This document shows positions 5,975-28,023 of a stretch of DNA of 40,382 bases, in pieces. The position numbers and the translations under genes were made by a program. Under the pieces are notes generated by a model. That model made no database searches. It saw only the letters and a program-made list of their open reading frames with translations, and was not told where the DNA came from. The stretch is from Oceanicola granulosus HTCC2516. Its GTDB lineage: Bacteria > Pseudomonadota > Alphaproteobacteria > Rhodobacterales > Rhodobacteraceae. Numbering within the stretch: position 1 is the stretch's first letter; every line of letters starts with the position of its first letter. Location of the stretch: contig NZ_CH724112.1 of assembly GCF_000153305.1 (NCBI RefSeq), positions 10,252-50,633 of the forward strand. Direction: 5' to 3'.

Positions 5975-6104
5975 GATCATGTGCCTCCCAGGCAGAAACC
6001 TTGCAGAAGTCTTAACCAGTGCGGCGACGGTGTGAAACCGCTCTCGTGGGCCGCACGCGCGAAGATGCCGCTCCCGTGGCCCCCGGAGCGCGCTCGGCGA
6101 GGCT

Positions 6105-10693: not shown

Positions 10694-12330
10694 ACGGGGT
10701 CCTCCCGTGTCCAGAACCGTTCCAGCACGCCGGTGGTGTCGACCGCGCGCAGCCGCGTGCAGGCCTGTTCGAAGCGCGTCCGGCTGAGCGCCAGGGTCTT
10801 GCTGACCTGCCGGGTCCGGGCGCGGTACGGATCCTTGCGCGGACGGAAGTCCGCCAGCAGACCCGCGGAAAGGTCCGTCAGCGCCTGCCGTTCGGCTGCC
10901 GACAGCCCGCCGCTCCGGGCTTCGAAGAAACGCGACACGAAACCGGGCAGGTCGTCGTAATCGAGCACGTCGGTCTGCGGCGCCGGAACGCGGGCCCATT
11001 TCTCGGCGAAGGCGAGCAGGAAGGCCGTGCGTTTCTCCAGCCAGGCGTCGAGGTGGCCGGAGGGCAGCGGGCGGAACTGCGCCTCGACGAGGGCATGCGC
11101 CCGGCGCAGCACCTCCGACTCGTGGCGGTAGTAGATCTTCTGGGGATAGATGCCTTCGGCGCGCAGCAGGTCGCCGTGGCGCTCGAGCTCGTCGAGCTCC
11201 CACCAGGAGGTCAGGATCATCAGCGGGTCGCGCAGCAGCACCAACCGGTGGAGGCCCGGGGGCGGCGGATAGGCTGGGTCGACGAGGCTGAAATCGTGCG
11301 ACTTGATCATCCGGAGCACCGCGTCCTCGGGGGCGGTGCTCCCAAGGGCGAAACCGGAGAGCGCGCAGGGAAACTGCCGGCAGCAGCCGGGTTCGTTGTA
11401 CCACTCGCAGAATTCGAACCGCGGCCCGAGCACGGCGGCGAAACACGCCTGGAGGAAGTGCAGCCCCGAGCGGGGCAGGGACTTGGTCTCGATCACGCGG
11501 GGCAGGTCGCGCTCCGCGTACCAGTCGTGCAGGTGACGATGGAAGAGCCGCAAGGTCGCCGGGGTGGGCGCTTCCGGGTTGAGGGCCTTGCGCCGGGCCG
11601 CAGCCTCGGTGCGGGCACGCTCCCGGGCACGCTGCAACTCGGCGAGCCGACGCGCCCGGGACCGGGCGGCGGGGCTGGTGCGGGCGAGGAGCCAGGGGCG
11701 GTCGGGATCGGCCGGCGCGGGTTCGGGCACGCAAAGGTAGCCTTCGTCCTCGAGCCGCGCCCGGATATCCGCCAGTGCCGCGGCGCCCTCGTAGAGCGGC
11801 TCCTGCCCGTCGCGCAGCAGCACTGCCTCGAACCGCTCGAGAAGCCCCGTCTCGGCGAGATTGGCCAGCACCCCGAGGCTCTCGCCCGGCGTCTCGAGGC
11901 ACAGGACCCGCAGCCCGCTACTCTCCGGCGAGGCAGCAGCCAGCCCCGGCAGGGTCGCGGGCGCGAGCGGCATCGTGTGGTAGCGCGAGCGGATCCGGAG
12001 GCCGGGGAAGCGGTCGAGCAGGGCAGGGGAGGCCGGACGCAGGCTGTCGAGCGACGGAAAGTTGGTGCGCAGGAACAGGCGCGGCGTGGTATCGCCCGAC
12101 ACGGCAGCGTGGTGGACGGTGTAGCGTTGGTCATCGGCGAGGGCCGCCCGCCGGCGGAGAGCCCGCTGGGGATCCGCTTCGACGATCAGCACCCGGGCGG
12201 CGTCGGCGGCGGGCGCCTCGGCCACGTCGCTGGCGCCGGTGCCGACGATGTGGACCAGCATCTCGGCCGGAGCGGCCTGGGCGAGGTCCGCGAAGACACG
12301 GCGCAGGCGGTCGAGCGGCGTCGGGATCAT
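10690..12330 (-). CDS. FkbM-like / sulfotransferase fusion
   Basis: A 546-residue protein. The C-terminal half (about 265-546) is a PAPS-dependent sulfotransferase: the 5'-phosphosulfate loop is KSLPRSGLHFL (283-293) and the 3'-phosphate site is LVLLRDPLMILTSWW (R367, S375). The N-terminal third (about 20-215) looks like a degenerate FkbM-type methyltransferase or cofactor-binding fold (VEADPQRALRRR, HHAAVSG, LDSLRP), but its SAM loop is weak (VGTGASD). Residues 215-260 form a charged helix. It probably sulfates the polymer or a lipid-linked intermediate in the cytoplasm. It is separated from the coiled-coil gene upstream by only 28 bp and overlaps the triple methyltransferase downstream. Confidence 0.78.
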   Translation of the reverse strand: MIPTPLDRLRRVFADLAQAAPAEMLVHIVGTGASDVAEAPAADAARVLIVEADPQRALRRRAALADDQRYTVHHAAVSGDTTPRLFLRTNFPSLDSLRPASPALLDRFPGLRIRSRYHTMPLAPATLPGLAAASPESSGLRVLCLETPGESLGVLANLAETGLLERFEAVLLRDGQEPLYEGAAALADIRARLEDEGYLCVPEPAPADPDRPWLLARTSPAARSRARRLAELQRARERARTEAAARRKALNPEAPTPATLRLFHRHLHDWYAERDLPRVIETKSLPRSGLHFLQACFAAVLGPRFEFCEWYNEPGCCRQFPCALSGFALGSTAPEDAVLRMIKSHDFSLVDPAYPPPPGLHRLVLLRDPLMILTSWWELDELERHGDLLRAEGIYPQKIYYRHESEVLRRAHALVEAQFRPLPSGHLDAWLEKRTAFLLAFAEKWARVPAPQTDVLDYDDLPGFVSRFFEARSGGLSAAERQALTDLSAGLLADFRPRKDPYRARTRQVSKTLALSRTRFEQACTRLRAVDTTGVLERFWTREDPV

Positions 12331-12358: not shown

Positions 12359-13252
12359 TCACCCCGGGCGCTTCAGCATCGTGCGTAGCCGGCGCAGCGG
12401 CGCGGTGACACGGTAGGAGTGGGAGCCGAGGAGGTGGGCGATCTCCGCATCGCGGTCCTGCAGCGTCTCCCGGGCCTTCTTCAGCGAGGCTTTGGTCTTC
12501 TCCAGCGCCTGCCGCTGTCGATCCAGCCGCTCCTGCTTGTGGCGCAGATCGGCCTTGTCGGCATCGGTGGCGGCGGCCAGCGCCAGCGCCTGCTCGTCGA
12601 GCGCCGAGATTTGCCGGTCCCGCGCGGCGAGATCGGCCTCGAGGGTCTCGATTCGGCGCTGCAGGGCGCTCCGTTCCCGGTGCCCCTCGCCCTTGGAGGA
12701 GGCGCTGTAGGCGGCATGGACCGCCTTGGCATCGACCGCCTCGCCCGCAGGCGCGGGCATGGGCAAGGACGCGGCCTCGAGTTCTTCGAGTAGGGCGCGC
12801 GCCTCGTCAGTTCGCAGCAAATGGTCGGCCAGCAGCACCAGCACCGGGTCCGGCGCGGTGCCGGCGGGCTCGGCGGGCTGCGCGTCCGCGGCATCGGCGC
12901 CACCGAGTTGGCGAGCCAGGGCGCCAGGGCGCGCGGCCGTCGCCTCGAGCGACGCCAGCCGGATCCGCCGCCGGTCCTGGCGGTGCAATTCCAGCAGCGC
13001 GACCGTCTTCCGCCGCCAATCCTCGAGCGCTGCCTCGGGGCCTGTGTCTCTCATCGCCTGCGCGAGGGCACTGCGCGGCGCGGGATAGAGCAACAGCACG
13101 GGCTCCGGGCCCGAGACTTGCTCCTGGTCGGGCAACGGACCGCGCAGGACCCGCCCCTCGGCCGGCGCGAGCGCTGCCAGGGCCGTGTCGGCCGCGGGAG
13201 TCTCGGGGGCCCAGACGAGCCATTGGGGCGGGAAGTGAGCGTTATCGGTCAT
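12359..13252 (-). CDS. Coiled-coil protein with S-x-S-[WY]-R-x-T-x-P-L-R tail, paralogue 1
   Basis: A 297-residue protein of unknown function, first gene of the minus-strand operon. The N-terminal block (about 50-115) has a hydrophobic strand PVLLLY and an invariant-looking W79 in LEDWRRKTVALLEL. A helical segment near 135-165 includes LLEELEA. The coiled coil spans about 193-272 with long runs of charged heptads. The tail is SHSYRVTAPLRRLRTML (277-293). The same architecture recurs at 21033-22019 and 24736-25407. Such W-R-x-T-x-P-L-R tails are known to follow coiled coils in multidomain glycosyltransferases; here the segment stands alone. A scaffold for the polymerising/sulfating enzymes is a guess. 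The ATG at 13252 is chosen because upstream codons lose similarity to the paralogues. Confidence 0.7.
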   Translation of the reverse strand: MTDNAHFPPQWLVWAPETPAADTALAALAPAEGRVLRGPLPDQEQVSGPEPVLLLYPAPRSALAQAMRDTGPEAALEDWRRKTVALLELHRQDRRRIRLASLEATAARPGALARQLGGADAADAQPAEPAGTAPDPVLVLLADHLLRTDEARALLEELEAASLPMPAPAGEAVDAKAVHAAYSASSKGEGHRERSALQRRIETLEADLAARDRQISALDEQALALAAATDADKADLRHKQERLDRQRQALEKTKASLKKARETLQDRDAEIAHLLGSHSYRVTAPLRRLRTMLKRPG

Positions 13253-13255
13253 TTG

Positions 13256-13377
13256 CGGCCAAAAGAACGATCGGGAACATTTAGGCGTTCTACAGGCCTC
13301 CGGCAGGATCACAAGCCGCCTGTCCGAGCGCTCTTCTCTTGCAGGGGGTGTCTCTGCTAGGGACGGCCAAAAGAGCG
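13256..13377. promoter_or_regulatory. Divergent intergenic region with direct and inverted repeats
   Basis: The 177-bp gap between two divergent polysaccharide genes carries the direct repeat CGGCCAAAAGARCG at 13256-13269 and 13364-13377, one near each gene. It also has an inverted pair AGCGCTCTT (13327-13335) / AAGAGCGCT (13371-13379). This suggests a regulator-binding region controlling both operons. No sigma-70 -35/-10 pair is obvious. Confidence 0.4.
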
Positions 13378-13429
13378 CTGCCGCGGCCGGTGGTGCCGCC
13401 GGACAGCAGAAAGCCGAGACCCCATTCCC

Positions 13430-15514
13430 GTGCCTCCTCGCTCCCAAGACGCCACTCCCCCCCGCCGCCTGCTGGTCAGCGGCATCGGGCGGTCCGGCAC
13501 CACGCTGATCTTCCAGCAACTCGCCAAGCTGCTGCTGCTCGAGACGGAGGCGGTGAACTTCCGCTACGAGCCCTACCTGTGGGACATCCAGAGCGCCGCC
13601 GGCACCAACAACCGCTACGGCATCGCCCAGCTGCACCATTTCGGACTGCACACCCACCGCACCGTGCCGCTGTTCCTGGATGGACCCGACCCGGTGCACG
13701 ACCCGTTCCTCGACGGGTTGTTCGATGCCCCTCTTGACAGCGATCGGGAGCGCCGCCCGGACGCCTGCCTCGTCAAGGTGATCCGCGGATCGGGCCGGCT
13801 CAGAGCCTATCTGAAGCGCTTCCCCGACCTGAAGGTCGTCGTGTGCCAGCGCAATCCGCTCGATACGATCAACTCCAGCCTCGGGATGTTCTCCTTCTTC
13901 GGCGAGGAATTCCACGCCGACGACCGTGACCGCTTCGTGGCCGAGCTCACGGCTCGGGGCCGGATGGACTGGGACCTGCCGGCGGCGCGACAGGCGGTGG
14001 AGTGGTACGGTGCCTGGTGGCGGGTCTTCACCGAGGAGACCCTCGCCGTCGCGCGCGATTTTCCCGACAATGTCTTCCTGTTCTGCCACGAGGCCTTCCA
14101 GGCCGACCGCGATGGCGTGCTCGAGGCGCTGCAGGACTTCGTGGGGCTGCACAATATCGGCATCCGTGCCGGGCTCGGCCGTTCCGCCGGCCTCTCGATC
14201 AAGACCGCCAGCCTCACCAGTCACGACCTCGCCGCGCTCTCCGGGCATGCGCGCTACTACCGCCATGCGGTGCTCGAGCCGGCGCTCGGCCTGGAGGCCG
14301 CCTACAGGCTCGGGGCGGAGCAGCTGCACAAGTTCGCCGCCCGTCCCTACACGCTGCCGCTGGCGGGCTCGGACCTCGGCCAGAAGAACACGATCCAGCT
14401 GCGCGACATGATGCTGCGCGGCCGCACCAGCCCCTGGCTGCGTACGATCACCGGGCCACAGAGCCCGATCGACCTGCACGCGCTGCTCGAGGAACATGCC
14501 GGCGACGACACGCCGCTGCGCCAGCTCGCTCCCGAGACCGCGCCTGCCGCCTTGCGCCACGGCAAGCGCTACGGGGTGGTGATCACCTGCCACAACAACA
14601 AGGACACCATCGTCGGCGCGGTGCTGTCGTGCCTGTCCCAGACCCTGCCGTTCGACCGGGTGCTGGTCGTGGACGACGCGTCCAAAGACGGCTCGCGCGA
14701 TCGGCTGGCGGTGCTGGCCGAGCATTTCAGCAGCCTTCAGGTGGAATATCTCGACAGCCGCGTCGGCCCGGCCGCCGCGCGCGAGATCGGGATCCGCCGT
14801 CTCGACACCGACTTCTTCACCCAGCTCGACGGCGACGACCTGTTCTGGCCCACCAAGAACGCCGAGGAGGCGCGGGTGCTGGCGGGCGACGAGACCGCGA
14901 TCGCCTTCAGCGATATCCTGCTGGTGCTACCCGAGACGTCGCTGCTGCGCGACACCAGTGCCTACGAGGGGGCGGCCGGCTCCGGCCTGGCACTGCGGAT
15001 GGCCTCGCGCGCGCCCCAGATCCCGCGCGACATGACCCTGTCGCGGGCGCGTTATTTCGCGGCCGGCGGCTACCACCTCGCCTCGCACCTCTACGAGGAC
15101 TGGGATCTCAAGCTGCGGCTGGCGGCGCTGGAGGGGGGCGAGTGGCGCCGGTCGGCGGCGCTCGCGGGAACGGTCTACAACCGTCTCAAGCCGGGGCTGT
15201 CGGGCGCCGACCCCGGACACCACGCCCGGGCGCTGAGCATCATCCTGATGCGCAACCTGCGCCATCTCGGCCTGCCGCCCGAGCATGTCCTTGAGGCCTA
15301 CAGGGCCGCACTGCAACCGTTCTCCAAGCTGCACCTCACCCGCACCACCCGCGCCTGGCTGAAGCGTCGCCTGGCGCAAGAGGACGGAACCGCCGCGGTA
15401 TCCGACCTCGCGGCCGGCCGCGCCTGGCAGGCGCTGAGCAACGCCGAACTGATCGAAACGATGGAGCGGGAGATCGCCCAGGACAAGGCCGCCAGGTCCG
15501 AGGAGCGCGCATGA
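13430..15514 (+). CDS. Sulfotransferase / GT2 glycosyltransferase fusion
   Basis: A 694-residue bifunctional protein. The N-terminal sulfotransferase (about 12-300) has the phosphosulfate loop SGIGRSGTTLIF (17-28) and the 3'-phosphate site VVVCQRNPLDTINSSL (R141, S149). The C-terminal family-2 glycosyltransferase (about 380-620) has YGVVITCHNNKDTI, VVDDASKDGS (413-422) and the metal motif QLDGDDLFW (465-473). One polypeptide could transfer both a sugar and a sulfate, acting at the cytoplasmic face. The start is a GTG with only a weak upstream purine tract; no ATG occurs before the P-loop, so the N-terminus is approximate. The stop overlaps the next ATG (ATGA), giving translational coupling. 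Confidence 0.82.
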   Translation: MPPRSQDATPPRRLLVSGIGRSGTTLIFQQLAKLLLLETEAVNFRYEPYLWDIQSAAGTNNRYGIAQLHHFGLHTHRTVPLFLDGPDPVHDPFLDGLFDAPLDSDRERRPDACLVKVIRGSGRLRAYLKRFPDLKVVVCQRNPLDTINSSLGMFSFFGEEFHADDRDRFVAELTARGRMDWDLPAARQAVEWYGAWWRVFTEETLAVARDFPDNVFLFCHEAFQADRDGVLEALQDFVGLHNIGIRAGLGRSAGLSIKTASLTSHDLAALSGHARYYRHAVLEPALGLEAAYRLGAEQLHKFAARPYTLPLAGSDLGQKNTIQLRDMMLRGRTSPWLRTITGPQSPIDLHALLEEHAGDDTPLRQLAPETAPAALRHGKRYGVVITCHNNKDTIVGAVLSCLSQTLPFDRVLVVDDASKDGSRDRLAVLAEHFSSLQVEYLDSRVGPAAAREIGIRRLDTDFFTQLDGDDLFWPTKNAEEARVLAGDETAIAFSDILLVLPETSLLRDTSAYEGAAGSGLALRMASRAPQIPRDMTLSRARYFAAGGYHLASHLYEDWDLKLRLAALEGGEWRRSAALAGTVYNRLKPGLSGADPGHHARALSIILMRNLRHLGLPPEHVLEAYRAALQPFSKLHLTRTTRAWLKRRLAQEDGTAAVSDLAAGRAWQALSNAELIETMEREIAQDKAARSEERA

Positions 15515-16326
15515 GCCCGACCTTCTCGATCATCACCGTGGTGCGCAACGACCCCGCCGGGGCGGTGCGCACCCTGCAGAGCGTCTTCGCCCAGACCTGC
15601 GCCGACTACGAGCTGATCGTGCAGGACGGCGCCTCCACTGACGAGACCTCCGACCTGCTGCGCCGCTTCGCCCCCTGGATCGACAGCCTGGTGATCGAGC
15701 CCGACGGCGGCATCTACGACGCGATGAACCGCGCCCTCGCCCGGGCCACCGGCGATTGGCTGCTGTTCCTGAACGCGGGCGATTTCTTCCGAGACAAGGA
15801 GGTGCTGGCCGAGGTCGCCGGGGAGATCGGCGGCGAGGGAGAGGATATCTTCGCGGGCCGGGTGAAGCGGGACGAGGACGGCAAGGTCCATGGCTTCCGC
15901 CCGCCCGACAAGTTCTGGGCGGGCAACACCTGCGATCACCAGGCGACCTTCATCGCCCGCGACTGGATGCAGCGGTTCGGTTACCGCGAGGAGTTCCGGG
16001 TCTGCGGCGACCTCGATTTCTTCACGCGGGCCCGGCAGGAGGGCGCGCGCTTCCGCTATCATCCGGTGATCGTCGCGCGGAGGCCGATGGCCGTGGGCGC
16101 GTCCTCGGGGTTCGTCGACCGGCTGCAGGACCGGTTCGCGATGCTCGAGCAGGTTTACGGGGCGGAGTACCCGGTGCGCGAGACGCTCACGCAGGAGATG
16201 GTCGTCGACACTGCCCGGGCCACCGGTTTCGAGCCGGAAGACCTTGCGCCACTGAGCCTCGAGGAGTTGTTCACCTTCCGCGAACGCTGGGAGCGGCGCG
16301 TTCAGTCGCGTCTGCCGCGCCGCTGA
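15511..16326 (+). CDS. Family-2 glycosyltransferase, WcaE/colanic-acid type
   Basis: A 271-residue single-domain GT-A enzyme. It begins FSIITVVRND, has the nucleotide-binding IVQDGASTDET, the EPDGGIYDAMNRAL segment characteristic of WcaE-like colanic-acid glycosyltransferases, and the metal motif as LNAGDFF rather than DxD. The later HQATFIARDW and CGDLDFFTRA fit the acceptor/catalytic region. It probably adds one sugar to a lipid-linked repeat unit in the cytoplasm. The ATG overlaps the stop of the upstream fusion gene. Donor and acceptor are not readable from sequence; GDP-fucose is plausible because gmd follows directly. Confidence 0.85.
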   Translation: MSPTFSIITVVRNDPAGAVRTLQSVFAQTCADYELIVQDGASTDETSDLLRRFAPWIDSLVIEPDGGIYDAMNRALARATGDWLLFLNAGDFFRDKEVLAEVAGEIGGEGEDIFAGRVKRDEDGKVHGFRPPDKFWAGNTCDHQATFIARDWMQRFGYREEFRVCGDLDFFTRARQEGARFRYHPVIVARRPMAVGASSGFVDRLQDRFAMLEQVYGAEYPVRETLTQEMVVDTARATGFEPEDLAPLSLEELFTFRERWERRVQSRLPRR

Positions 16327-16338
16327 GGCTTTCCGGAG

Positions 16339-16345
16339 TTTGACA
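16339..16345 (+). promoter_or_regulatory. Candidate -35 element before gmd
   Basis: TTTGACA followed by CCCCCGC, 68 bp before the gmd start. The same TTTGACA-(C/G)-CCCCGC pattern occurs at 39361-39374 before the last glycosyltransferase gene. No good -10 is visible, which is common in GC-rich alphaproteobacteria. Confidence 0.35.
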
Positions 16346-16412
16346 CCCCCGCACCCCTGTGCTCGAAGCGGGCGACGGGGCAGCGTTTCCGGCCCCTACC
16401 GCAGGAGATTTC

Positions 16413-17534
16413 ATGACGCGCAAGGCTCTCATCACCGGCATCACCGGCCAGGACGGCAGCTACCTCGCGGAGTTCCTGCTCGAAAAGGGCTACGAGGTGC
16501 ACGGCATCAAGCGCCGGGCGTCGCAGTTCAACACGCAGCGGGTCGATCACATCTACGAGGACCCCCACGAGAGCGGGCGGCACTTCAAGCTCCATTACGG
16601 CGATCTCACCGACAGCTCCAACCTGACCCGGATCCTGTCGGAGGTGCAACCCGACGAGGTCTACAACCTCGGCGCCCAGAGCCACGTGGCGGTGAGCTTC
16701 GAGGCGCCCGAATACACCGCCGACGTCGACGCGATCGGCACCCTGCGGCTGCTCGAGGCGATCCGCTTCCTCGGCCTCGAGAAGAAGACCCGCTTCTACC
16801 AGGCCTCCACCTCCGAGCTCTACGGGCTGGTGCAGGAGGTGCCGCAGACCGAGACCACCCCGTTCCACCCGCGCAGCCCTTACGCGGTGGCCAAGATGTA
16901 CGCCTACTGGATCTGCGTGAATTACCGCGAGGCCTACGGGATGTATGCCTGCAACGGGATCCTGTTCAACCACGAGTCCCCGCGCCGCGGCGAGACCTTC
17001 GTGACCCGCAAGATCACCCGCGGCCTCGCCAATATCGCGATGGGGCTGGAGCCATGTCTCTACATGGGCAACATCGACGCCCTGCGCGACTGGGGCCACG
17101 CGAAGGACTACGTGCGGATGCAGTGGATGATGCTGCAGCAGGAGCGGGCGGAGGATTTCGTCATCGCCACCGGCAAGCAATACTCGGTGCGCGAGTTCAT
17201 CACCTGGAGCGCCGCCGAGCTCGGCATCACGCTCGAGTTCTCCGGCACGGGCGTCGACGAGATCGCGACCGTCGTCGAGGTCAAAGGCGAGCGGGCGCCG
17301 ATGCTCAAGGCGGGCGACGTGATCCTGCGCATCGACCCGCGCTACTTCCGCCCCGCCGAGGTCGAGACCCTGCTCGGCGACCCCTCCCGCGCCAAGGCCA
17401 AGCTCGGCTGGGAGCCGCAGATCACCGCCCGCGAGATGTGCGCCGAGATGGTCGCCGAAGACTACAAGTCCGCCCGCCGCCACGCCCTGCTCAAGAGCCA
17501 CGGGCTGGACGTGCCGGTGAGCGTGGAGGGGTGA
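16413..17534 (+). CDS. gmd: GDP-mannose 4,6-dehydratase
   Basis: A 373-residue NADP-dependent dehydratase converting GDP-D-mannose to GDP-4-keto-6-deoxy-D-mannose, the first committed step to GDP-L-fucose (or GDP-rhamnose/perosamine). Visible features are [12 protein letters not shown] at the N-terminus, [13 protein letters not shown], the catalytic region [21 protein letters not shown] and [17 protein letters not shown], all near-diagnostic of Gmd. The ATG at 16413 follows AGGAG at 16403-16407; an earlier in-frame start would add residues before the Rossmann strand. Its usual partner fcl is not adjacent: it lies 4.5 kb downstream, beyond four genes of lower GC. Confidence 0.95.
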
Positions 17535-17560
17535 GCCTGTAACATCTGAGGGATCAGACC

Positions 17561-18211
17561 ATGCTCCTGTCGCACGCGAAGAAGTTCATCTACATCAAAA
17601 CGGTCAAGACTGCGGGTACTTCGGTCGAGGTCGCTCTTCAGGAACATTGTCTTCCGCCAGATCGGCAGATCGTCTCCCACGAGCCGTACGAGAGCGACTA
17701 CGGCATCGTCGGCGCGCGCGGGCAAGGCGCCCGAGCCCATACCTGGTTCAACCACATGCCGGCCCGCGCGATCCGCAAGCTGATCCCCGAGGATACGTGG
17801 GAGAGCTACACCAAGATCTGCAATATCCGAAACCCATGGGACAAGACGGTTTCCTGGTTCCACTTTGCGCAGCCGGAGATGAAATCCCGCCCTCGCAACG
17901 AGGTCATTTCCGCGTTCCGCCGGACGCTGTACGAACGTCTCGAAGCTAATCTTAATTTCGGACGGGACACGAACCTTTATTTTATCGACGGACAGCCCGT
18001 GTGTAACGAATACATCCGCTATGACCGCTTACAGGACGACTACGCTCGGATTTGCCGGAAGCTGGACATCAAAAATGCGGACCTTCCTCAGCTGAAGCGC
18101 ACCGAGCGCGGCTCTGGGATCACCTACAGGGAATACTACGATAACGATCTTCGAGATCATGTCGCCGAAGCCTATTCAATGGAAATCAACGTATTTGGCT
18201 GGAGCTTCTGA
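17561..18211 (+). CDS. Sulfotransferase family protein
   Basis: A 216-residue PAPS-dependent sulfotransferase of the small sulfotransfer-2-like kind. The 5'-phosphosulfate loop is KTVKTAGTS (13-21) and the 3'-phosphate site is CNIRNPWDKTVSWF (R90, S98). EYIRYDRLQDDY near 153-164 matches the segment these proteins use to contact the acceptor side. It has no signal peptide, so it would be cytoplasmic and would act on a lipid-linked or nucleotide-linked sugar. It is the first gene of the lower-GC island between gmd and fcl; its third positions are visibly richer in A/T than in gmd. The acceptor is unknown. Confidence 0.8.
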   Translation: MLLSHAKKFIYIKTVKTAGTSVEVALQEHCLPPDRQIVSHEPYESDYGIVGARGQGARAHTWFNHMPARAIRKLIPEDTWESYTKICNIRNPWDKTVSWFHFAQPEMKSRPRNEVISAFRRTLYERLEANLNFGRDTNLYFIDGQPVCNEYIRYDRLQDDYARICRKLDIKNADLPQLKRTERGSGITYREYYDNDLRDHVAEAYSMEINVFGWSF

Positions 18212-18238
18212 CATCTATACTGCTTTAGGTATGTCGCT

Positions 18239-19990
18239 ATGATCGCATATGATCCGTCGCAGCCACTCATGTTCATCCACGTCCCAAAGACAGGCGGCAC
18301 ATCCGTGCGACGTGTCTTCAGGAACTGGTTTCGGGACCGGCTACTGTTGAACTACCGTGTACCAGGGGGTGATCTGCCGGTTCGAAATCCTATGGTAGAC
18401 GAGCATTCCGTGGATGAGCCGGTCTGCGTGTACGGGCATTTTAATAGAGACGCCGGCTTCTCGATAAATAGTCTCTATCCCGACATTAGGCAATTTATTT
18501 GCATTCTTAGAGATCCTTTCGATACAGCGCTCTCTTACTATTTTTTCATGGAGAGAAAAGGAAAAGGTCTAGGGAGGCTCGATGAATATCTCAGCAGCAC
18601 GAAGCTGAACCAGCTGTCTCATTTCCCGGAAGTCGTCACCGAAGAAAACTACATCGACCTGATCGAAAACCGCTTCATCTGGATTGGCACCACCGAGACG
18701 TTAGCTACCTCGATGGAGATCATCGCCGATCGCCTGAACAGATTCGTTCCTACTAGGCTCGACCGTTTGAACGTGAGCGACCGGAGCGTCGACGAGAAGC
18801 GGCTCGACGATTACCGGGAGGTGTTCCAGAAGAACAATCCGCTAGAGTACAAGGTCTACCGGTACGTGGCCGAGAAGAACGAAGCGTATCAGCGAAACGC
18901 TAGTGCTGGGTATTCTGCCCCGGCGTCCCCGCCATCTGTTTCCACCGACGCCAAGAAGATCACGTTCCACACTGGGCTTCCGAAAGCAGGTACGACATCG
19001 ATCCAGATGGCGTTGATGGATACGGAGCAGCAGCATCGCGCCGAGGGCCTCTTCTTTCCTTTCGATAAGACGTTCTTTGGTACGAATCTTCCATCTGATA
19101 GACGGATAGACCTTCCTCCGCAGACGGATGCCCTCGCCTACCTCTATCATAACTTTCGTCCGGTCAGCTCGAGTGAGTTCGACTGGCAGAAGATCTTCGA
19201 GGACTTCCTGCAATCACCGGACCTGGATCACGCCATCATCTCGCACGAGCTCCTGTCACTGGAATCACGCAACCTTCGTCCAGGAGTGTTCAACGTGCTC
19301 GCGAGGCGCGCTCAGCTCACCTTCCTCCTCTACCTGCGCGAGCCTGCAATTTGGCTCACGTCGCTCTATGCCCAGATCATCCACGACCCTAGCGTACCTG
19401 CATCGACAGGGCGGACGTTCCGTCCATATGCGCGATACATAGATAAGGGTTTCGAGGGGGTCGTGGCGCCATTCATTCCGCACGGTCGAATAGATGTGCG
19501 AAGCTATGATCGGCTGACCTCCGAGAATAGGCTTATCGAGGATTTCTTCGAGGCCGTCGGGGCTCCGGGGCTCGCGCCGATTTCGCGCGCGCACCTGCAC
19601 AATTCCCGACGCGCCGGGCGCAACTCGATTGTCTTCCTGCTCTCCCTGAAGGAAGTCGTGCCTCCCGACCACATTGCGAAACTGTTTCATAAGGTTCTGG
19701 GGCCTGCGGATCGCCTTGACATGACCCCGCGCAGCCTTTTCTCAGCCGATATGGTGCAGGCCGTTGCACAGCGGTGGGAGCGAGACCGGGAGTACTTTCG
19801 AGAAGTCCACCATGTGGATCTACCCCCCGCAACACCTTCCGAAGCCGGACCTGCGCATCTGTGTGTAGACGAGGCCTACGTCGCAGAACTGAGGGAGGAG
19901 GTACACGACGATCTCTCGGAGCTAGAGCGGACCTGGTTTGACTTGGCCGCTCGCAACGCAATCGGGGGGTGGGAAAACTCCTTTTCCTAG
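18239..19990 (+). CDS. Tandem two-domain sulfotransferase
   Basis: A 583-residue protein with two complete sulfotransferase-like domains. Domain 1 (about 8-215) has FIHVPKTGGTSVRRVF (loop 15-22) and CILRDPFDTALSYYFF (R91, S99). Domain 2 (about 240-480) has FHTGLPKAGTTSIQ (247-254) and LLYLREPAIWLTSLY (R367, S375). The two domains are diverged, suggesting a fusion of different enzymes rather than a recent duplication, perhaps sulfating two positions of one unit. GC is low; the line 18481-18540 has 23 G/C of 60. The ATG at 18239 has a weak AGG 9 nt upstream. A tail of about 100 residues follows without a recognised domain. Confidence 0.78.
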   Translation: MIAYDPSQPLMFIHVPKTGGTSVRRVFRNWFRDRLLLNYRVPGGDLPVRNPMVDEHSVDEPVCVYGHFNRDAGFSINSLYPDIRQFICILRDPFDTALSYYFFMERKGKGLGRLDEYLSSTKLNQLSHFPEVVTEENYIDLIENRFIWIGTTETLATSMEIIADRLNRFVPTRLDRLNVSDRSVDEKRLDDYREVFQKNNPLEYKVYRYVAEKNEAYQRNASAGYSAPASPPSVSTDAKKITFHTGLPKAGTTSIQMALMDTEQQHRAEGLFFPFDKTFFGTNLPSDRRIDLPPQTDALAYLYHNFRPVSSSEFDWQKIFEDFLQSPDLDHAIISHELLSLESRNLRPGVFNVLARRAQLTFLLYLREPAIWLTSLYAQIIHDPSVPASTGRTFRPYARYIDKGFEGVVAPFIPHGRIDVRSYDRLTSENRLIEDFFEAVGAPGLAPISRAHLHNSRRAGRNSIVFLLSLKEVVPPDHIAKLFHKVLGPADRLDMTPRSLFSADMVQAVAQRWERDREYFREVHHVDLPPATPSEAGPAHLCVDEAYVAELREEVHDDLSELERTWFDLAARNAIGGWENSFS

Positions 19991-20053
19991 GACTTTGCTG
20001 ACTATGTCGACTCCGAATCCTTCCGAACCGTTGCCGTCCCCAGTGGCTAACCG

Positions 20054-21031
20054 ATGACGAGCCGGCGACCTCTCACTGCAAGCTGTGTTCGTACCATTAT
20101 CGTGCCGTGCTTGGCTCGGGACCTCGCTGCTCTCCAAACGATGTTGGATATGTGGGAGGCGTTGCCGCCGCTCTTGGCAGCCGACGGTAAGCCGCGTGGG
20201 CTGCTGGTTCTAATCAACAATGCTGATGCTGCACTGCGCCAATCTTTTCTTGAGGTACTTGACGCTAGCGTTGTTGTGCAGCGAACTTTTTCGCGCGTTC
20301 GCGTGGAGAGTGCGGGCCTGAGCGGCGACAGCGATCTCTATATTCGTGGGCAGATGTCTTCCATGGGCACACAGGGTAACGTTGCGGGCCCGAACAACTT
20401 GTTTTTTAAAGCGATCGAATTGGCCAAAGACGATGGCGGCTTTGCATTTCAGTGCGAGCTAGACTGCTTCCCCTTGGTTTCAGGATGGTTGACGAAGCTT
20501 GACGAGTGCGTCTCCTCCTTCCCCCAATCTTGGGTCATCGGCTCAAACTATACGGGCTATCGGCCCATTCACCCTTCGGTGATGTTCCACATTAACGGAA
20601 ACGCTCTCTACCAAGTCGGAGATCCGCAGTTTCAAGCATTTGCTCGGCAGATCTGGCGCGGCCGGATTCTCAAGATTGTCAATACTCGACCGAATATCGC
20701 CTATGATTGCTGGTGGCAAATGGAACTGGCCTCGGCTGAACCTAGCAGGAATAGCGGTTGGTTTAACTGGGTAGCGTTCAGCCACCGGTTCACAGCCCTT
20801 CCTCTGATCCTGAACCTGCTGCACAGGAACGATTTTAGGGAAGATCTCGAGATCGCAAAGCAAATCGAACTCTTGAGTGGCCGCCGGAATATCTTTCTGC
20901 ATGCACACTTTCTGCGGCCCGTCATCCAAAATTACCTACGAGACGAGAACAAGATGCGCGAGGACCTGTTGACTGTGCTTGCCCGAGAGGTTCCGGACCA
21001 TGCAGGCTCGCTCTCGGACGAAAGGAAATGA
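20054..21031 (+). CDS. Putative GT-A-like glycosyltransferase, unassigned family
   Basis: A 325-residue protein that I cannot place in a named family. It starts with a strand/helix pattern typical of nucleotide-sugar enzymes (TIIVPCLARDLAALQTMLDMW, then LLVLINN). In the middle it has FQCELDCFPLVSGWL (E-x-D could be the metal site) and VIGSNYTGYRPIHP. HINGNALYQVG and YDCWWQMELA follow. There is no signal peptide or membrane segment. It lies in the lower-GC island between the tandem sulfotransferase and the second coiled-coil orphan, with which it is nearly contiguous (stop 21031, next ATG 21033). A cytoplasmic glycosyltransferase is my best guess; the Shine-Dalgarno is not evident. Confidence 0.55.
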   Translation: MTSRRPLTASCVRTIIVPCLARDLAALQTMLDMWEALPPLLAADGKPRGLLVLINNADAALRQSFLEVLDASVVVQRTFSRVRVESAGLSGDSDLYIRGQMSSMGTQGNVAGPNNLFFKAIELAKDDGGFAFQCELDCFPLVSGWLTKLDECVSSFPQSWVIGSNYTGYRPIHPSVMFHINGNALYQVGDPQFQAFARQIWRGRILKIVNTRPNIAYDCWWQMELASAEPSRNSGWFNWVAFSHRFTALPLILNLLHRNDFREDLEIAKQIELLSGRRNIFLHAHFLRPVIQNYLRDENKMREDLLTVLAREVPDHAGSLSDERK

Positions 21032-21032
21032 T

Positions 21033-22019
21033 ATGCGGGCGAGTTCTGCTCCTCAAGAAGTGCTGTCGGTGAAGGTGTGGGACAACCGTCCCGACGCGGA
21101 TTACTTAGCGGACCTGCCGGGGCTCGTCGTGTGGCCGCAGGTCAATACTTATCTCGCGGATGCTCTGCATGCCGGGCTCCCTCCCGTTGCCGCTCTCAAA
21201 GAGTGGCAGACGCGAAGCGAGGCTCTGCTGACGGTGGCCGCCGAGGCGCCTCTGTCGTTGTTTCTGGCCGTCGGCGACATCGCTTGCCTGGATGAAGCAC
21301 ATCTTCGAGATGTCCTGTCTCATGAGTTGGGGGCAACGGTGCGTTTGGACATGAGCTCATGTCAGAGCGTGCTCCCTGGATCGCGCGCCTTGCGTGATCT
21401 CCTCGCCGTCTTCGCCGCGGCGGAAACAGGTCAAAATGCTGAGATCGAGGAGCTCAGCGGCGCTCTGGCGGCAGCGAGCATCCTCAGACCCCCGGAGGAG
21501 GTTGTGCCTCGCGAAATGGCCGTCAGGCACGCGGTGGAGGCGCTCCGGCGCGAGATTGCTGAAAAGGACGAGAAGCTGCTTCGACAGGATCTGGAGAACA
21601 GAAACCTGACAGAGACGATCGCGCAGCAGACCTTCAAGGTGTTCACCGACCGGTGGGATGCACTTTCCGTGCGAGAGGTGGAAATGCTGAAACGGGAGCG
21701 CAACGATTATCAGCAACGAGCCGTCAGACGACTAGCCGCATTGCACAGGGCGGACGAAGCTCTCGAAGCCCTACGGGGAGCGCGGAAAAAGCAAGAGGCG
21801 CGCGTGGAACAACTCCTTGCGGAGGTCGAGATGCTTCAGAATGCTGTGGCACAGCAAGACAAACGCATTGTAGGCAAGGAGGCTGCTCTGAAGACGCAAC
21901 GCGAACGTCTCGCGGCCACAAATGATCAACTGGCGGCCCTGCAAGCTTCGACCTCATGGCGTATAACGGCTCCTTTGCGGATGCTCTCCCTCCGCATGAG
22001 GCACCTTCTCAAACACTAG
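21033..22019 (+). CDS. Coiled-coil protein with [11 protein letters not shown] tail, paralogue 2
   Basis: A 328-residue relative of the proteins at 12359-13252 and 24736-25407. The N-terminal block has LPGLVVW (28-34) and W58 in [18 protein letters not shown] helical segment with [19 protein letters not shown] (138-156) corresponds to the LLEELEA/LLAELEA segments of the others. A coiled coil spans about 163-300, interrupted near 200-210. The tail is [13 protein letters not shown] (307-319). The ATG at 21033 has AAAGGA 6 nt upstream. It is the last gene of the lower-GC island, 56 bp before fcl. Function unknown; the shared tail points to association with glycosyltransferase machinery. Confidence 0.7.
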
Positions 22020-22075
22020 CCCGAAAGAGCCAACAAATGAGCGGCTGGCGCTCGCCAGAAAGAGGACGAACACCG

Positions 22076-23041
22076 ATGAAAATCCACATCGCAGGCCACA
22101 GGGGCATGGTCGGGGGCGCGATCCTGCGCAAGCTGGAGGCGCGGCGCGCGGCGGGGGAGGAGCTGGAGTTGCTCACTCGCACCCATGCCGAACTCGACCT
22201 CACCGACCAGCAGGCGGTGCGCGCTTTCATGGAGGCCGAGCGGCCCGACGCGGTGATCCTGGCCGCCGCGAAGGTGGGCGGCATCCACGCCAACAACACC
22301 TACCCGGCCGACTTCATCCACGACAACCTGCTGATCCAGGCCAACGTCATCGGCCAGGCCCATGCCGCCGGGGTGCGGCGGCTGCTGTTCCTCGGCTCGT
22401 CCTGCATCTACCCCAAGCTCGCCCCCCAGCCGATGCGCGAGGACGCGCTGCTGACCGGCACGCTCGAGCCCACCAACGAGCCCTATGCCATCGCCAAGAT
22501 CGCCGGCATCAAGCTCTGCGAGAGCTTCAACCGCCAGCACGGAACCGACTACCGCTCTGTGATGCCCACCAACCTCTACGGCCCCGGCGACAACTTCCAT
22601 CCCGAGAACTCCCACGTCGTCCCCGCCCTGATCCGCCGCTTCCACGAGGCGGTGCAAGGCGGCGCCGACGAGGTGGTGATCTGGGGCACCGGCACGCCCT
22701 ACCGCGAGTTCCTTCACGTCGACGACATGGCCGAGGCCTCGCTGTTCGTGTTCGACCTGCCGCGCGACGTCTATAAGGCCAACACGGAGCCCATGCTGAG
22801 CCACATCAACGTCGGCACCGGGCAGGACGTCACCATCGCCGAGCTCGCCCGGGCGATCGCGAAGATCACCGGCTTCGAGGGCCGCATCACCTTCGACACC
22901 ACCAAGCCCGACGGCACCCCGCGCAAGCTGATGGACGTCTCCCGCCTCGCCGCCATGGGCTGGCGCGCCAGCACCGGCCTCGAGGACGGGCTGGCCGACG
23001 CGTACAGGTGGTTCCGGGAGACGGAGACGGCGCGGGTCTGA
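22076..23041 (+). CDS. fcl: GDP-L-fucose synthase
   Basis: A 321-residue bifunctional epimerase/reductase that turns GDP-4-keto-6-deoxymannose into GDP-L-fucose with NADPH. Diagnostic features are [10 protein letters not shown] at the N-terminus, [27 protein letters not shown], the catalytic YAIAKIAG (YxxxK) and [16 protein letters not shown], all typical of Fcl/WcaG. The start at 22076 follows AGAGGA; an in-frame ATG at 22037 would add 13 residues ahead of the Rossmann strand. GC returns abruptly to the window norm here. Together with gmd it commits the locus to a fucose-containing product. Confidence 0.94.
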
Positions 23042-23045
23042 ACCG

Positions 23046-24743
23046 ATGGACCCTGCCGCCCGCCCGCTGACGCTGTTCGTGCCGTTCTACACGCCGCGCG
23101 ATCCGGAACGGGCGGCCGAGCTGCAGACCTGTCTCGAGACCAACCTCGCCAGCGGTCTCTTCGAGCGGATCGTGCTGCTGCAGGACGACGACACCCCCCG
23201 GCCCGGCGACGACCCGCGGCTGGTGCAGGTCCGGCTCGAGTCCCGCCCGACCTACCGCGACTGGCTACGCCAGGCACGCGCGCTCTGCCCGGGCGGCATC
23301 GCGGTGCTCGCCAACAGCGACATCCTCTTCGACACCACGATCCGCCGGCTGCGGGAGCTGTTCGCGGCCGACCCCGGCGCCTTCGTCGCGCTCTCCCGCC
23401 ACGAGCGACGCGGGGAGGAGACGTGGCCGCACCCGAACCCCCGGCGCTCGCAGGACACCTGGGCCATGCTGCCGGAGGCGGAGGTTGACGAGACGATGGC
23501 GCACCAGCTCGAGATCCCGCTTGGCACGGTGCGGTGCGACAACAAGGTCGCCTACCTCTTCGCGATCAACGGCTTCCGGCTCCACAACCCCATGCACCAG
23601 ATCCGCTCGGTGCACCTGCACGAGTCCGAGATCCGCTACTACGACCGCACCGGCGACCACACCCTCAAGGGCGGCATGGCGCTGGTTCATCCCGCGCCTG
23701 CACTCGGGGTGCCTTCGAAGGTCGAGACGGAGGTCTGGGTGGTGGACTCCGCCCAGCTCCGCCGGCCGACCCTGAACCGGGCGCTGGAAAAGTGGCGGCT
23801 CGGAGGGCGGCCGCGGGCGCCCGCCCTGTTCGCCCACGTGGACGGCTGGACCCATCCCGAACCCACCGAGGCGCACGCGCTGGCGCAGATGCGCGCGCTG
23901 ATGCCCGCGGCGGGGGACCAGGTCGCCTATCTCGGCTTTCCCTGGGCGGCGCTGATCGAGCGGCGCGAGGCGGGCGGAGATCTCTCGGAGGACGAGACCG
24001 TCCTGGCTGGATTCCGCGGACTGCTCCAGCCTTGGCCCCGGCGGGTCACGGTCTGCCAGCACCCCCGAATGCGCGATCACGGCGCTCTGTTCGCCGCCGC
24101 GGGCATCACCGATATCTTCTGGAGCCACCGCCGCCCCGGCGACCCGCCCCTGCCGGAAGCTGCCAAGACGGTGGTCCGCGCGTTTCCCCGCCACCCGCGC
24201 CTGCTGGCGCCGGTGGGGCCCGAGACTGCCGACGCGCCGCGCCCGCACCTCGTCTCCGACCTCGGCGCGGGGCCGGGCGCGGCGCATCCCGCCCGGGGGC
24301 GGCTGCGGGCCTGCCTCGGAGAGGATGCCCGCGCCGTCGTCGCCACGGGGGGCGGGCGCAGGCGCAAGGCGGCGCTGCTGGCGGCGTCCGACTTCTCGAT
24401 CTGCCTGCCCGAGGCGGGCGCGGGAGTGCCGCTGCGGCTGTGGGAGGCGGTGGCGGCGCTGTCGGTGCCGGTGCTGTTCGACGATCTGCGCCTGCCGGGC
24501 GATCCCGACCTGTGGCGCGCCGCGACGGTGCGGGCCGGCCGCGGCCCGGAAGCCATCGCCGCGTTGCCCGACCGGCTCGCCGCCCTCGCGGCGACGCCGG
24601 GGCTGATGCGTCGCAAGCGGAGCGCCCTGCACGTCCTCGCCGAGCGCTACGGTCCGCAGCGCTTCGTCCACGACGTCCTCGATTTCGTCAGGCGCCACGA
24701 CGACCAACGTCCCCTGCCACAGGAGCCTGAGGCCCATGCCTGA
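23046..24743 (+). CDS. Glycosyltransferase / exostosin-like (GT47) fusion
   Basis: A 565-residue protein. The N-terminal part (about 8-235) is a GT-A-like domain: LFVPFYTPRDPER, IAVLANSDILFD (85-96; S-D-I as metal motif) and FAINGFRLHNPMHQIRSVHLHESEI. The C-terminal part (about 290-550) ends in the exostosin pattern, SDFSICLPEAGAGVPLRLWEAV then VPVLFDDLRLPGDPDLW (448-490), as in GT47-type enzymes. It may transfer two sugars. The ATG is 4 bp after the fcl stop, so it is co-transcribed with fcl, and it overlaps the next gene by 8 bp. Donors are unknown; uronate and fucose are both available from the locus. Confidence 0.72.
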   Translation: MDPAARPLTLFVPFYTPRDPERAAELQTCLETNLASGLFERIVLLQDDDTPRPGDDPRLVQVRLESRPTYRDWLRQARALCPGGIAVLANSDILFDTTIRRLRELFAADPGAFVALSRHERRGEETWPHPNPRRSQDTWAMLPEAEVDETMAHQLEIPLGTVRCDNKVAYLFAINGFRLHNPMHQIRSVHLHESEIRYYDRTGDHTLKGGMALVHPAPALGVPSKVETEVWVVDSAQLRRPTLNRALEKWRLGGRPRAPALFAHVDGWTHPEPTEAHALAQMRALMPAAGDQVAYLGFPWAALIERREAGGDLSEDETVLAGFRGLLQPWPRRVTVCQHPRMRDHGALFAAAGITDIFWSHRRPGDPPLPEAAKTVVRAFPRHPRLLAPVGPETADAPRPHLVSDLGAGPGAAHPARGRLRACLGEDARAVVATGGGRRRKAALLAASDFSICLPEAGAGVPLRLWEAVAALSVPVLFDDLRLPGDPDLWRAATVRAGRGPEAIAALPDRLAALAATPGLMRRKRSALHVLAERYGPQRFVHDVLDFVRRHDDQRPLPQEPEAHA

Positions 24744-25407
24744 TCCCGCCCTCGACCTCGTCGCCCCCGGGGAGGCGCTCGCCGAAGAATTCCTCGGCCT
24801 CGACCTAGTGGCGCGCGACCGGGTCCGGCTCTGCACGGAGCCCGCGGCCTGGCGGCCCGGGTCGGCACCAGGTCCGCTGCTGCTGCTCTACGAAGATCCG
24901 GTGAGCCACGTGCTTCGCACCGGCGGGTCGGTGAGGCAGGAGGCACCGGCAAGCCTCGCCGGCTGGCGCGAGGGAGCCGAGGCGCTGGTGGCGATCCTGC
25001 GCGACCACCCGGCGCACGCGACGACGCTCGATCTCGCCGCCGCGCGCCAGGCCGCCGCCCTGCAGGCGTGCCTCGCCGGGGCCGCGCCTGGCCCGGCAGA
25101 GCCACGCGAGCCCGATCTTCACGATACCGCCCTCGCCGGCGAGGCGGCGCGGGCGCTGGCCCCGCTCTGCCGGCTGCTCGCGGAACTCGAGGCGCACGGG
25201 CCGTTGCGTCCACCGGCCGGCACCGCCCCGCTCGAGGAACGGATCCGCTGGCTCGAGACTGCGCTCGCCGACAGCCTCGCCGCCGAGGCCCGCTGTGCCG
25301 ATCGCCTCGCCGCCTGCGAGGCAAGGCTGCAGGGCCTCCACGCCTCCACCTCCTGGAAGCTCACCCGCCCGGTGCGCGGACTGCGTCGGCTGTTTGCCCG
25401 CGACTAA
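24736..25407 (+). CDS. Small protein with S-T-S-W-K-L-T-R-P-V-R tail, paralogue 3
   Basis: A 223-residue third member of the family at 12359-13252 and 21033-22019. The N-terminal block has PLLLLY (47-52) and W77 in PASLAGWREGAEALVAI, aligning with PVLLLY...LEDWRRKTVALL of paralogue 1. LLAELEAHGPLRPP (147-160) matches the helical segment of the others. The coiled-coil part is short (about 165-203), giving the lower length. The tail is STSWKLTRPVRGLRRLF (204-220). It overlaps the stop of the upstream GT/exostosin gene by 8 bp, so translation is coupled. Function unknown; see findings. Confidence 0.7.
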   Translation: MPDPALDLVAPGEALAEEFLGLDLVARDRVRLCTEPAAWRPGSAPGPLLLLYEDPVSHVLRTGGSVRQEAPASLAGWREGAEALVAILRDHPAHATTLDLAAARQAAALQACLAGAAPGPAEPREPDLHDTALAGEAARALAPLCRLLAELEAHGPLRPPAGTAPLEERIRWLETALADSLAAEARCADRLAACEARLQGLHASTSWKLTRPVRGLRRLFARD

Positions 25408-27714: not shown

Positions 27715-28023
27715 ATGATGAGCAGCAGCAAGTTCAGCGACGAGTTCAAGCGGGATGCCGTCGCGCAGATCACCGAGCGGGGCTATCCGGTCAGGGAGGT
27801 GTCGAAGCGCCTCGGGGTCAGCCCGTATTCGCTCTACGCCTGGAATAAGAAGTTCGCGCAGGCGTCGTCCGGTGAGGCGGAGAAGGACACCGAGATCCGG
27901 CGCCTGAAGAAGGAGCTGGCGCGGGTCTCGGAGGAGCGTGACATCCTAAAAAAGGGTCGCCATTGGTGCGCCATTGGTCCGAGCGACAATGGCGACGCGT
28001 ATTTCGCCAGGGATGCAAAGTGA
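27715..28023 (+). CDS. IS3-family transposase OrfA
   Basis: A 102-residue helix-turn-helix protein of IS3 elements: FSDEFKRDAVAQITERGYPV, then VSKRLGVSPYSLYAWNKKF and a leucine-zipper segment RRLKKELARVSEERDILKK. AGGAGG lies just upstream; the second ATG (27718) is better spaced than the first. Near the C-terminus GRHWCAIGPSDN interrupts the usual ILKK-x-x-AYFARDAK pattern. The DNA there contains the inverted pair TCGCCATTG/CAATGGCGA, so an extra 36 bp may have been gained without changing frame. The A6G slippery run at 27948-27954 precedes it. Confidence 0.85.
   Translation: MMSSSKFSDEFKRDAVAQITERGYPVREVSKRLGVSPYSLYAWNKKFAQASSGEAEKDTEIRRLKKELARVSEERDILKKGRHWCAIGPSDNGDAYFARDAK
27948..27954 (+). 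promoter_or_regulatory. Programmed -1 frameshift site (A AAA AAG)
   Basis: Heptamer AAAAAAG in the OrfA frame as A-AAA-AAG, followed by a potential hairpin (TCGCCATTG with CAATGGCGA). A -1 slip enters a frame open without a stop through to the end of OrfB, giving the OrfAB transposase normal for IS3 elements. Confidence 0.7.

Follow-up and report, generated by a model that had tools for sequence, protein, structure and literature searches.

A family of sulfotransferase-like, probably non-catalytic coiled-coil proteins in surface-polysaccharide gene clusters of Rhodobacteraceae

A stretch of 40,382 nucleotides from Oceanicola granulosus HTCC2516 (contig NZ_CH724112.1, positions 10,252 to 50,633; hereafter the window) encodes three proteins, A, B and C, that are members, probable in the case of C, of an unnamed family recognized by sequence comparison, whose proteins stand alone in nearly all cases. 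The N-terminal head domain of the family probably has a sulfotransferase fold that has lost the motifs for binding 3'-phosphoadenosine 5'-phosphosulfate (PAPS), and it is followed by a coiled coil of variable length and a conserved tail. We tentatively read the family as non-catalytic, sulfotransferase-derived adaptors of surface-polysaccharide assembly dependent on ATP-binding cassette (ABC) transporters, a reading to which we give just under an even chance. The shared N-terminal domain, the variable coil, the tail, the loss of motifs and the co-location with export genes have computed support, and the function is inferred from them.

An N-terminal domain shared by A, B and probably C

The three open reading frames (ORFs) are real and lie where the original prediction had placed them, A on the minus strand, which had been left unstated. 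The conserved tryptophans that it had named (W79 in A, W58 in B and W77 in C), their L-x-x-W pattern and the three tails were likewise found as written. Coordinates here and below are those of the window, and lengths are in amino acids (aa).

12359-13252, minus strand: protein A, 297 aa, ORF confirmed
12707-13252, minus strand: A, N-terminal sulfotransferase-fold-like domain, residues 1-182, boundary approximate (profile score 111.6 bits; AlphaFold2 model)
12425-12706, minus strand: A, predicted coiled coil, about 94 aa (heptad periodicity)
12359-12424, minus strand: A, tail SHSYRVTAPLR and short basic end (tail regular expression)
21033-22019, plus strand: protein B, 328 aa, ORF confirmed
21033-21587, plus strand: B, N-terminal domain, its first strand absent or not recognized (profile score 39.2 bits)
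21588-21947, plus strand: B, predicted coiled coil, about 120 aa (heptad periodicity)
21948-22019, plus strand: B, tail and basic end (tail regular expression)
24736-25407, plus strand: protein C, 223 aa, ORF confirmed
24736-25185, plus strand: C, probable N-terminal domain (14.4 bits; start codon overlapped by the end of the preceding frame)
25186-25344, plus strand: C, short heptad-like stretch (heptad periodicity)
25345-25407, plus strand: C, tail STSWKLTRPVR and basic end (tail regular expression)

Across all six frames of the window the tail expression matched only within A, B and C (12392-12424 on the minus strand, 21948-21980 and 25345-25377 on the plus strand). Pairwise BLASTP aligned A with B and B with C through coil and tail, and for A and C returned just a misaligned piece of 22 bits and an N-block alignment of 15 bits, not significant. 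Because no pair gave a significant alignment of the N-terminal blocks, these needed a profile test of their own, for which a profile was built from 28 relatives in 27 other genomes with no window protein included. The N-terminal parts of A, B and C scored 111.6, 39.2 and 14.4 bits against it (whole C, 18.0 bits), and all reversed sequences scored below zero. The best of 1000 shuffles each reached 0.7 bits for A, 7.6 for B (995 scored) and 17.5 for C, where one shuffle exceeded the real N-terminal part and C is therefore marginal. B was also matched in two genome searches with profiles that contained A and not B (4.2e-5 and 7.4e-8); C was reported in neither of them, and B alone as query against 149 genomes found only itself.

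By the N-terminal domain, A and B are thus firm members of one family at the sequence level, and C is a probable member on the basis of its tail, the position of W77, its heptad stretch and the weak profile score. The N-terminal blocks that had been proposed as common to all three are accordingly secure for A and B and just probable for C. That the proteins share only a tail and a generic coiled coil, the N-terminal similarity being chance, would fit the confinement of the pairwise alignments to coil and tail and the one higher-scoring shuffle of C; it is refuted for A and B by scores obtained without coil or tail, and we find it scarcely credible overall. Shuffled sequences reached the real heptad periodicity in 0 of 300 cases for A, 4 of 300 for B and 1 of 300 for C. 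The heptad stretch of C measures 53 aa if the domain ends at residue 150 and 18 aa if it ends at residue 185. The coil of A drew matches to Pfam coiled-coil families, every one below cut-off.

Extent and conservation of the family

A profile search of the kind proposed in the original prediction, built on A and four relatives, matched 40 of the 394 genomes taken from the host's taxonomic family (E ≤ 0.01); 31 of these genomes, the host's own included, matched at E 4.4e-6 or better. At most eight candidates were scored per genome, so that the counts are lower bounds. With that restriction, 36 of the 40 genomes hold a single match; three in one cluster is unusual, and the proposal of one such protein per enzyme module finds no support. 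Among 385 genomes drawn across the class, the host's own and two others matched at 0.001, one of the two with a distant relative bearing a long coiled coil and the other with an intact PF13469 sulfotransferase. The distant relative, a 744-aa frame at locus L113 in another taxonomic family, has an additional C-terminal stretch besides its distant family domain and long coiled coil, and hints at a wider distribution.

Conservation was assessed in an alignment of 31 sequences (28 relatives with A, B and C; residues in A numbering). A142 is present in all 31 and W79 in 30, and R91 (26/31), R94 (27/31), R95 (26/31), D135 (22/31) and E157 (24/31) are well conserved, as are P72 (19/31), A75 and L76 (27/31 each), P136 (21/30) and L158 (20/31). 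With a looser pattern the tail was detected in 28 of 35 family genes; of the other seven, one is truncated by a contig end. Between the domain, taken as 185 aa, and the tail lie 18-421 aa (median 173) in the 28 tail-bearing members. The C-terminal end is basic and amphipathic, with a mean hydrophobic moment of 0.54 against 0.35 for shuffled sequences (n = 26).

In keeping with the description of the family as undescribed, no Pfam or NCBIfam model for it was among the matches listed for the 31 members, and searches of Pfam, NCBIfam and PDB sequences with these members gave matches that were single-member, coiled-coil or otherwise weak. No account of such a family was found in the open-access literature, where differently worded accounts would escape, and a search there for six exact nine-letter forms of the tail gave no paper. 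Homologues include proteins of Pseudodonghicola flavimaris and Shimia biformata and two plasmid-borne proteins annotated as hypothetical, from Thalassovita gelatinovora (WP_074647159.1) and Sulfitobacter sp. D7 (WP_120352592.1). Searches of plasmids by tblastn returned nothing for queries P0003 and P0001 and two records for one relative; a three-sequence alignment used as query found no relative among viral contigs.

A is closest to the Pseudodonghicola protein (support 0.98). The three window proteins form no common group in the tree, where B and C are long, weakly placed branches, and the G+C fractions (GC) of A, B and C differ (0.73, 0.605 and 0.759, respectively). The idea that each module arrived with its own adaptor is compatible with the lack of a common clade and with the position of B in a stretch of lower GC, but no more than compatible, the placements of B and C being weak.

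Tails inside multidomain glycosyltransferases, which the original prediction had given as known, were met once, and only two of 407 neighbouring non-family proteins bear the tail at all. The case in question is the larger of these two, a protein of 1180 aa (locus L076, 7188-10727, minus strand), in which an MptE-like domain (PF01973) comes first, followed by a middle part that is GT-B-like by eye and then by the family domain, coil and tail near the C-terminus. At L055 (7979-8506), the stretch just upstream of a family gene encodes a coiled-coil-like protein of 176 aa that ends in the tail form STSWKLTAPVR and perhaps represents a second tail-bearing family. At L080 (12243-13106, minus strand), a second family-like protein, not counted as family by profile, is encoded near the family gene.

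Predicted fold and origin of the head domain

The head is composed of a strand, a helix, a long helix carrying the conserved tryptophan and a strand with L-v-d after it, and from this order a sulfotransferase was suspected before any fold search. AlphaFold2 models were obtained for the domain of A (predicted local distance difference test score, pLDDT, 79; predicted template modelling score, pTM, 0.72) and for that of the Shimia homologue (pLDDT 85.5, pTM 0.74). A Foldseek search of the PDB with the Shimia model placed sulfotransferases at ranks 1-5, the best being SULT4A1 (E 1.1e-3, probability 0.99), and in 16 of the best 50 rows, a count that includes the sulfotransferases Teg12, Teg14 and StaL; rows for TPST2 had template modelling (TM) scores up to 0.51. 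Against BFVD the same model found a sulfotransferase at rank 1 (E 1e-3, probability 1.00, TM 0.50, root-mean-square deviation (rmsd) 5.1), and 15 of the best 50 rows were named sulfotransferase. The models therefore suggest that the head probably keeps a sulfotransferase fold. The predicted fold and the strand, helix, long W-helix and strand order would then be those of the PAPS-dependent sulfotransferases (PF13469; SULT4A1, Teg14 and TPST2 are among the nearest solved folds), some of which are also similar in a Y-E-D-L strand segment.

Sequence comparison points in the same direction. When a sub-profile of the family was run against the 407 non-family proteins, a sulfotransferase fused to a family 2 glycosyltransferase (GT2) at locus L062 ranked second with 19.2 bits and the window's own sulfotransferase-GT2 fusion (13430-15514) ranked fourth with 10.3 bits, ranks 1 and 3 going to proteins with family-like domains of their own; among 7222 scored shuffles the highest score was 10.1 bits. 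The match is in register with the strand, which reads L-I-D-Y-E-S-L in L062, and the L062 sulfotransferase is above the PF13469 cut-off. With the full family profile the two proteins again took ranks 2 and 4 (18.7 and 12.9 bits), and the window protein forms a sequence bridge between the family and sulfotransferases. Alignment of the family by hhalign with three sulfotransferase-GT2 proteins (L062, the window protein and its homologue) gave E 5.1e-5 (prob 67), and nine non-sulfotransferase controls (epimerases, KpsT, UDP-glucose dehydrogenase, FkbM, FkbM-like, GT2, RmlA and two others) gave E 0.07 or worse. The intact sulfotransferase matched outside the taxonomic family (PF13469, 60.7 bits) was hit in the same segment with E 5.5e-4.

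Several results weigh against this fold and origin. Both models were built on five sequences; that of A had no significant fold match, with sulfotransferases only at ranks 3-4 (E 0.068), the top PDB match of the Shimia model superposes poorly (TM 0.37, rmsd 13.9), and for neither model did a Foldseek E-value fall below 0.001. In the sub-profile search one reversed protein scored 12.3 bits, above the 10.3 bits of the window sulfotransferase. The positive hhalign result is not independent, because two of its three templates had been picked by their sub-profile matches, and hhalign was unconvincing against four local sulfotransferase sets (E 0.11-0.58), against 24 PF13469 proteins (E 0.035) and against these 24 with the three sulfotransferase-GT2 proteins added (E 0.0056). 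None of 30 PF13469 proteins, about five of them read in the wrong frame, beat their shuffles. Since E-values were calculated per genome, about 0.4 chance matches at 0.001 are expected in the 385 genomes drawn across the class. In addition, a Pfam scan of the 31 members at E ≤ 1 showed no sulfotransferase among the matches listed (25 of 27 families). With both sides considered, a sulfotransferase origin of the head is likely.

The head lacks recognizable cofactor motifs

A string of the 5'-phosphosulfate-binding (5'-PSB) P-loop type occurs in the first 75 residues of three of 31 members, none at the right place by eye; the controls had it in 24 of 24 PF13469 proteins (which were chosen by their P-loop pattern), in 5 of 7 third-gene proteins from the operons described below and in 2 of 3 bridge proteins. 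At the in-register position of the 3'-phosphate-binding (3'-PB) motif, Arg is found in three members, Ser in one and both in none. The 3'-PB string is present anywhere in the domain in 4 of 31, and a looser pattern was found in 23/24, 6/7 and 3/3 of the same controls. There is no invariant acidic, His, Ser or Thr column, E157 and D135 being the best, and every His, Ser or Thr column stays below 55% of the 31 members. Unlike PAPS-dependent sulfotransferases, then, the family head has neither the P-loop nor the in-register Arg/Ser pair, its domain is shorter, a coiled coil and tail are added, and it gives no signal against broad PF13469 sets. The head, probably a sulfotransferase fold without PAPS-binding motifs, is read as non-catalytic.

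A divergent but active transferase that uses another donor is highly unlikely. The predicted fold is a transferase fold and the arginines are strongly conserved, as an active enzyme would have it; the PAPS motifs are gone, however, no potentially catalytic column of the kinds above is invariant, and no enzyme family common to more than one of the 31 members was among the Pfam and NCBIfam matches listed. The conserved residues admit another use, in which the inactivated domain keeps its acceptor cleft, binds polysaccharide and recruits polymerases, sulfotransferases or the exporter. The loss of the cofactor motifs while W79, R91, R94, R95 and D135 stay well conserved, and the fusion behind an MptE-like domain in one genome, are consistent with such a glycan-reading head, which we nevertheless regard as rather unlikely, as these residues could equally form a protein interface or the fold core.

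Family genes lie near export genes and modification enzymes

The 59,405-base contig that holds the window encodes a replication initiator (PF10134), a ParA-type ATPase (PF13614) and a ParB-like protein (PF02195, below cut-off), and is therefore taken to be a plasmid. Outside the window, this plasmid carries an ABC2_membrane permease (PF01061) and a 217-aa ABC ATPase (PF00005), and between them lies a frame that is KpsE-like by eye with no Pfam match. The ATPase has one ABC_tran domain at residues 22-151 and otherwise only ATPase-type matches below cut-off; Pfam reported no carbohydrate-binding module on it, the window's own plasmid being the one examined.

Co-location was measured in 28 of the 31 genomes matching at E ≤ 4.4e-6, leaving out G000, G291 (a fusion) and G296 (a match with a stop). 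An ABC2_membrane gene lies within 30 kb of the family gene in 17 of 28 genomes, with 1.6 expected for one random place each; for Poly_export the figures are 6 of 28 with 1.0 expected, and for Wzx 3 of 28 with 0.65 expected. A mainly Wzx-linked family was rejected on this last count. Two considerations temper the association with ABC export: PF01061 covers more than KpsM and its members were not sorted by type, and 11 of 30 family matches lack an ABC2_membrane gene within that distance, short contigs being part of the cause.

Of 31 regions fetched for the neighbour survey, 29 were kept; L076 and L077 were dropped, as the profile showed no family gene standing by itself in either. Counts are approximate because genes were called by our own script. 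Genes of a cluster that comprises FkbM-like proteins, sulfotransferases and FkbM methyltransferases, joined through fusions, lie within five genes of the family gene in 20 of 33 loci, at position +1 or +2 on the same strand in 14, and directly downstream (+1, same strand, ≤200 bp) in 13. The remaining 20 loci have no such direct partner, nor does one adjoin B or C in the window, which weighs against the adaptor reading given below. A glycosyltransferase cluster member lies within five genes in 25 of 33 loci. The original picture of standalone proteins beside sulfotransferases or glycosyltransferases is borne out by the frequencies of the direct partner and of this second cluster.

Among the 37 members of the first cluster, the P-loop string C-[ST]-G-G-T occurs in 11 (11 loci) and the FkbM string EGSEYE in two (two loci). 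Ten of the 37 were run against Pfam. Third genes, encoding about 311 aa, matched PF13469 in three of three tested, two over cut-off, and FkbM genes matched PF05050 over cut-off in two. Four second-gene proteins were scanned, of which one was over the FkbM cut-off, one just short of it, one weakly matched another methyltransferase family and one gave nothing; three of the four had coiled-coil matches below cut-off. Second and third genes are fused in the window and in Shimia. As a side observation, Pfam has little coverage of the FkbM-like second-gene proteins.

Proposed role

Taken together, the domain order (head, variable coil, basic amphipathic end), the setting among export genes and the partners in the operon point to an adaptor of a modification module. 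In this model the tail with its basic end would bind the inner membrane or assembly machinery located there, the coil would oligomerize and set a distance, and the inactive sulfotransferase-like head would dock either the glycan or the modification enzyme that is its partner. In this way the protein would hold a sulfate- or methyl-transfer module near the membrane-bound assembly machinery, and sulfation or methylation could then occur at a defined place on the growing chain. The anatomy of head, heptad-rich stretch and tail suits a scaffold or ruler, as had been proposed from the window alone; the control of length or processivity proposed with it finds no support.

The closest known architecture is that of the WbdD-type terminators of Escherichia coli O9a and Klebsiella O3/O5, with WbbB of O12, ORF7 of O4 and ORF6 of O7, to which the family is likened by architecture and not by sequence. 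Both have an N-terminal globular head, a coiled coil (in A and B; very short in C) and a C-terminal basic amphipathic end, and both are encoded in ABC-transporter-dependent loci with a methyltransferase or sulfotransferase on hand. Unlike the WbdD type, the family head has no recognizable catalytic motifs, the enzyme is a separate protein, and no carbohydrate-binding module was found on the ATPase of the window's own plasmid. According to PMC11231755, all terminated O-antigen examples have such a module attached to the transporter ATPase. Because this module is missing and the chain has no recognizable catalytic head of its own, the family is treated as possibly WbdD-like in its working and not as a member of that class.

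A length ruler or terminator subunit of the WbdD kind, in which the coil length would set the distance of the terminating enzyme from the polymerase and hence the chain length, is on balance unlikely. It would account for the order of head, coil and basic amphipathic end, which is that of WbdD (PMC11231755, PMC3482155), for the wide range of the domain-to-tail stretch among the 28 tail-bearing members, for the ABC-2 permease context, for the operons with sulfotransferase or methyltransferase genes and for the coiled-coil matches below cut-off in three of four second-gene proteins. The head without a recognizable active site, the near absence of a coil in C and the 217-aa ATPase with no carbohydrate-binding module reported, set against the examples in PMC11231755, argue the other way. 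A bolder and to our minds doubtful version is a pseudo-sulfotransferase on a length-variable coil that acts as a separate ruler or reader, measuring the capsule chain and offering the end of that chain to a sulfotransferase or FkbM methyltransferase that is detachable. If this were true, the position of sulfation or methylation, or chain length, would be set by a pseudoenzyme, and the WbdD principle would be split, with head enzyme and ruler as different proteins and sulfate as a possible terminator.

To our knowledge, the placement of sulfate on bacterial surface sugars and the fixing of chain length have been worked out in few systems. Under the adaptor reading, a sulfotransferase-like family without PAPS motifs, located beside true sulfotransferases and methyltransferases in ABC-export clusters, offers a deletable candidate for the control of sulfation or chain length. 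It would also make the sulfotransferase one more fold from which bacteria have derived pseudoenzyme scaffolds, and would provide a handle on the hypothetical proteins of the Thalassovita gelatinovora and Sulfitobacter sp. D7 plasmids.

Other features of the window and its plasmid

The genes around A, B and C, with an export gene further away, are as follows.

10690-12330, minus strand: partner of A, FkbM-like Rossmann domain fused to a sulfotransferase, 31 bp downstream of A
13430-15514, plus strand: intact sulfotransferase fused to GT2, divergent from A (PF13469 2e-7, PF00535 5.6e-17)
17561-19990, plus strand: pair of genes upstream of B that encode sulfotransferase-like domains, two of these in the second gene by eye (PF00685 0.0068; PF03567 0.00087, PF13469 0.0041; all below cut-off)
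20054-21031, plus strand: gene directly before B, GT-A-like by eye, no Pfam match
23046-24743, plus strand: gene whose end overlaps the start of C, placed by BLAST in the glycosyltransferase cluster, without a Pfam match
25475-27190, plus strand: GT2 glycosyltransferase after C, start chosen by eye (PF00535 3.9e-25)
4853-5980, minus strand: polysaccharide export protein, Wza/KpsD type (PF02563 4.3e-15)

The partner of A contains a P-loop, KSLPRSGL, and the motif RDPxxxxxS, both recognized by eye, and had no Pfam match at E ≤ 0.1; the same FkbM-like/sulfotransferase fusion in Shimia biformata (L053) scores 26.1 bits with PF13469, for which the cut-off is 27. No Rfam match was found in the window, and a scan for sigma-70-type promoters around A found none. 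The stretch 17561-21031, with the sulfotransferase-like genes and the gene before B, has a GC of 0.54-0.56, compared with 0.69 for the window, and was perhaps acquired separately. A transposase frame with an integrase core (PF00665) adjoins the cluster at 27963-28892.

The plasmid also carries a UDP-glucose dehydrogenase, a GDP-mannose dehydratase and an epimerase that resembles GDP-fucose synthase by eye. A surface polysaccharide cluster on plasmid p_SM1903_1 of Pelagovum pacificum is similar at the DNA level in its phosphomannomutase, UDP-glucose dehydrogenase, export protein and epimerase, and its annotations include an ABC permease and ATPase, a UDP-galactopyranose mutase, replication initiator A and ParB; no family member was found on it by profile at E ≤ 0.1. 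At L049 (5940-10127), a 1396-aa protein of RTX calcium-binding repeats (PF00353, 35 stretches) is encoded beside export genes, and the annotation of the Pelagovum plasmid shows a calcium-binding protein in the same setting.

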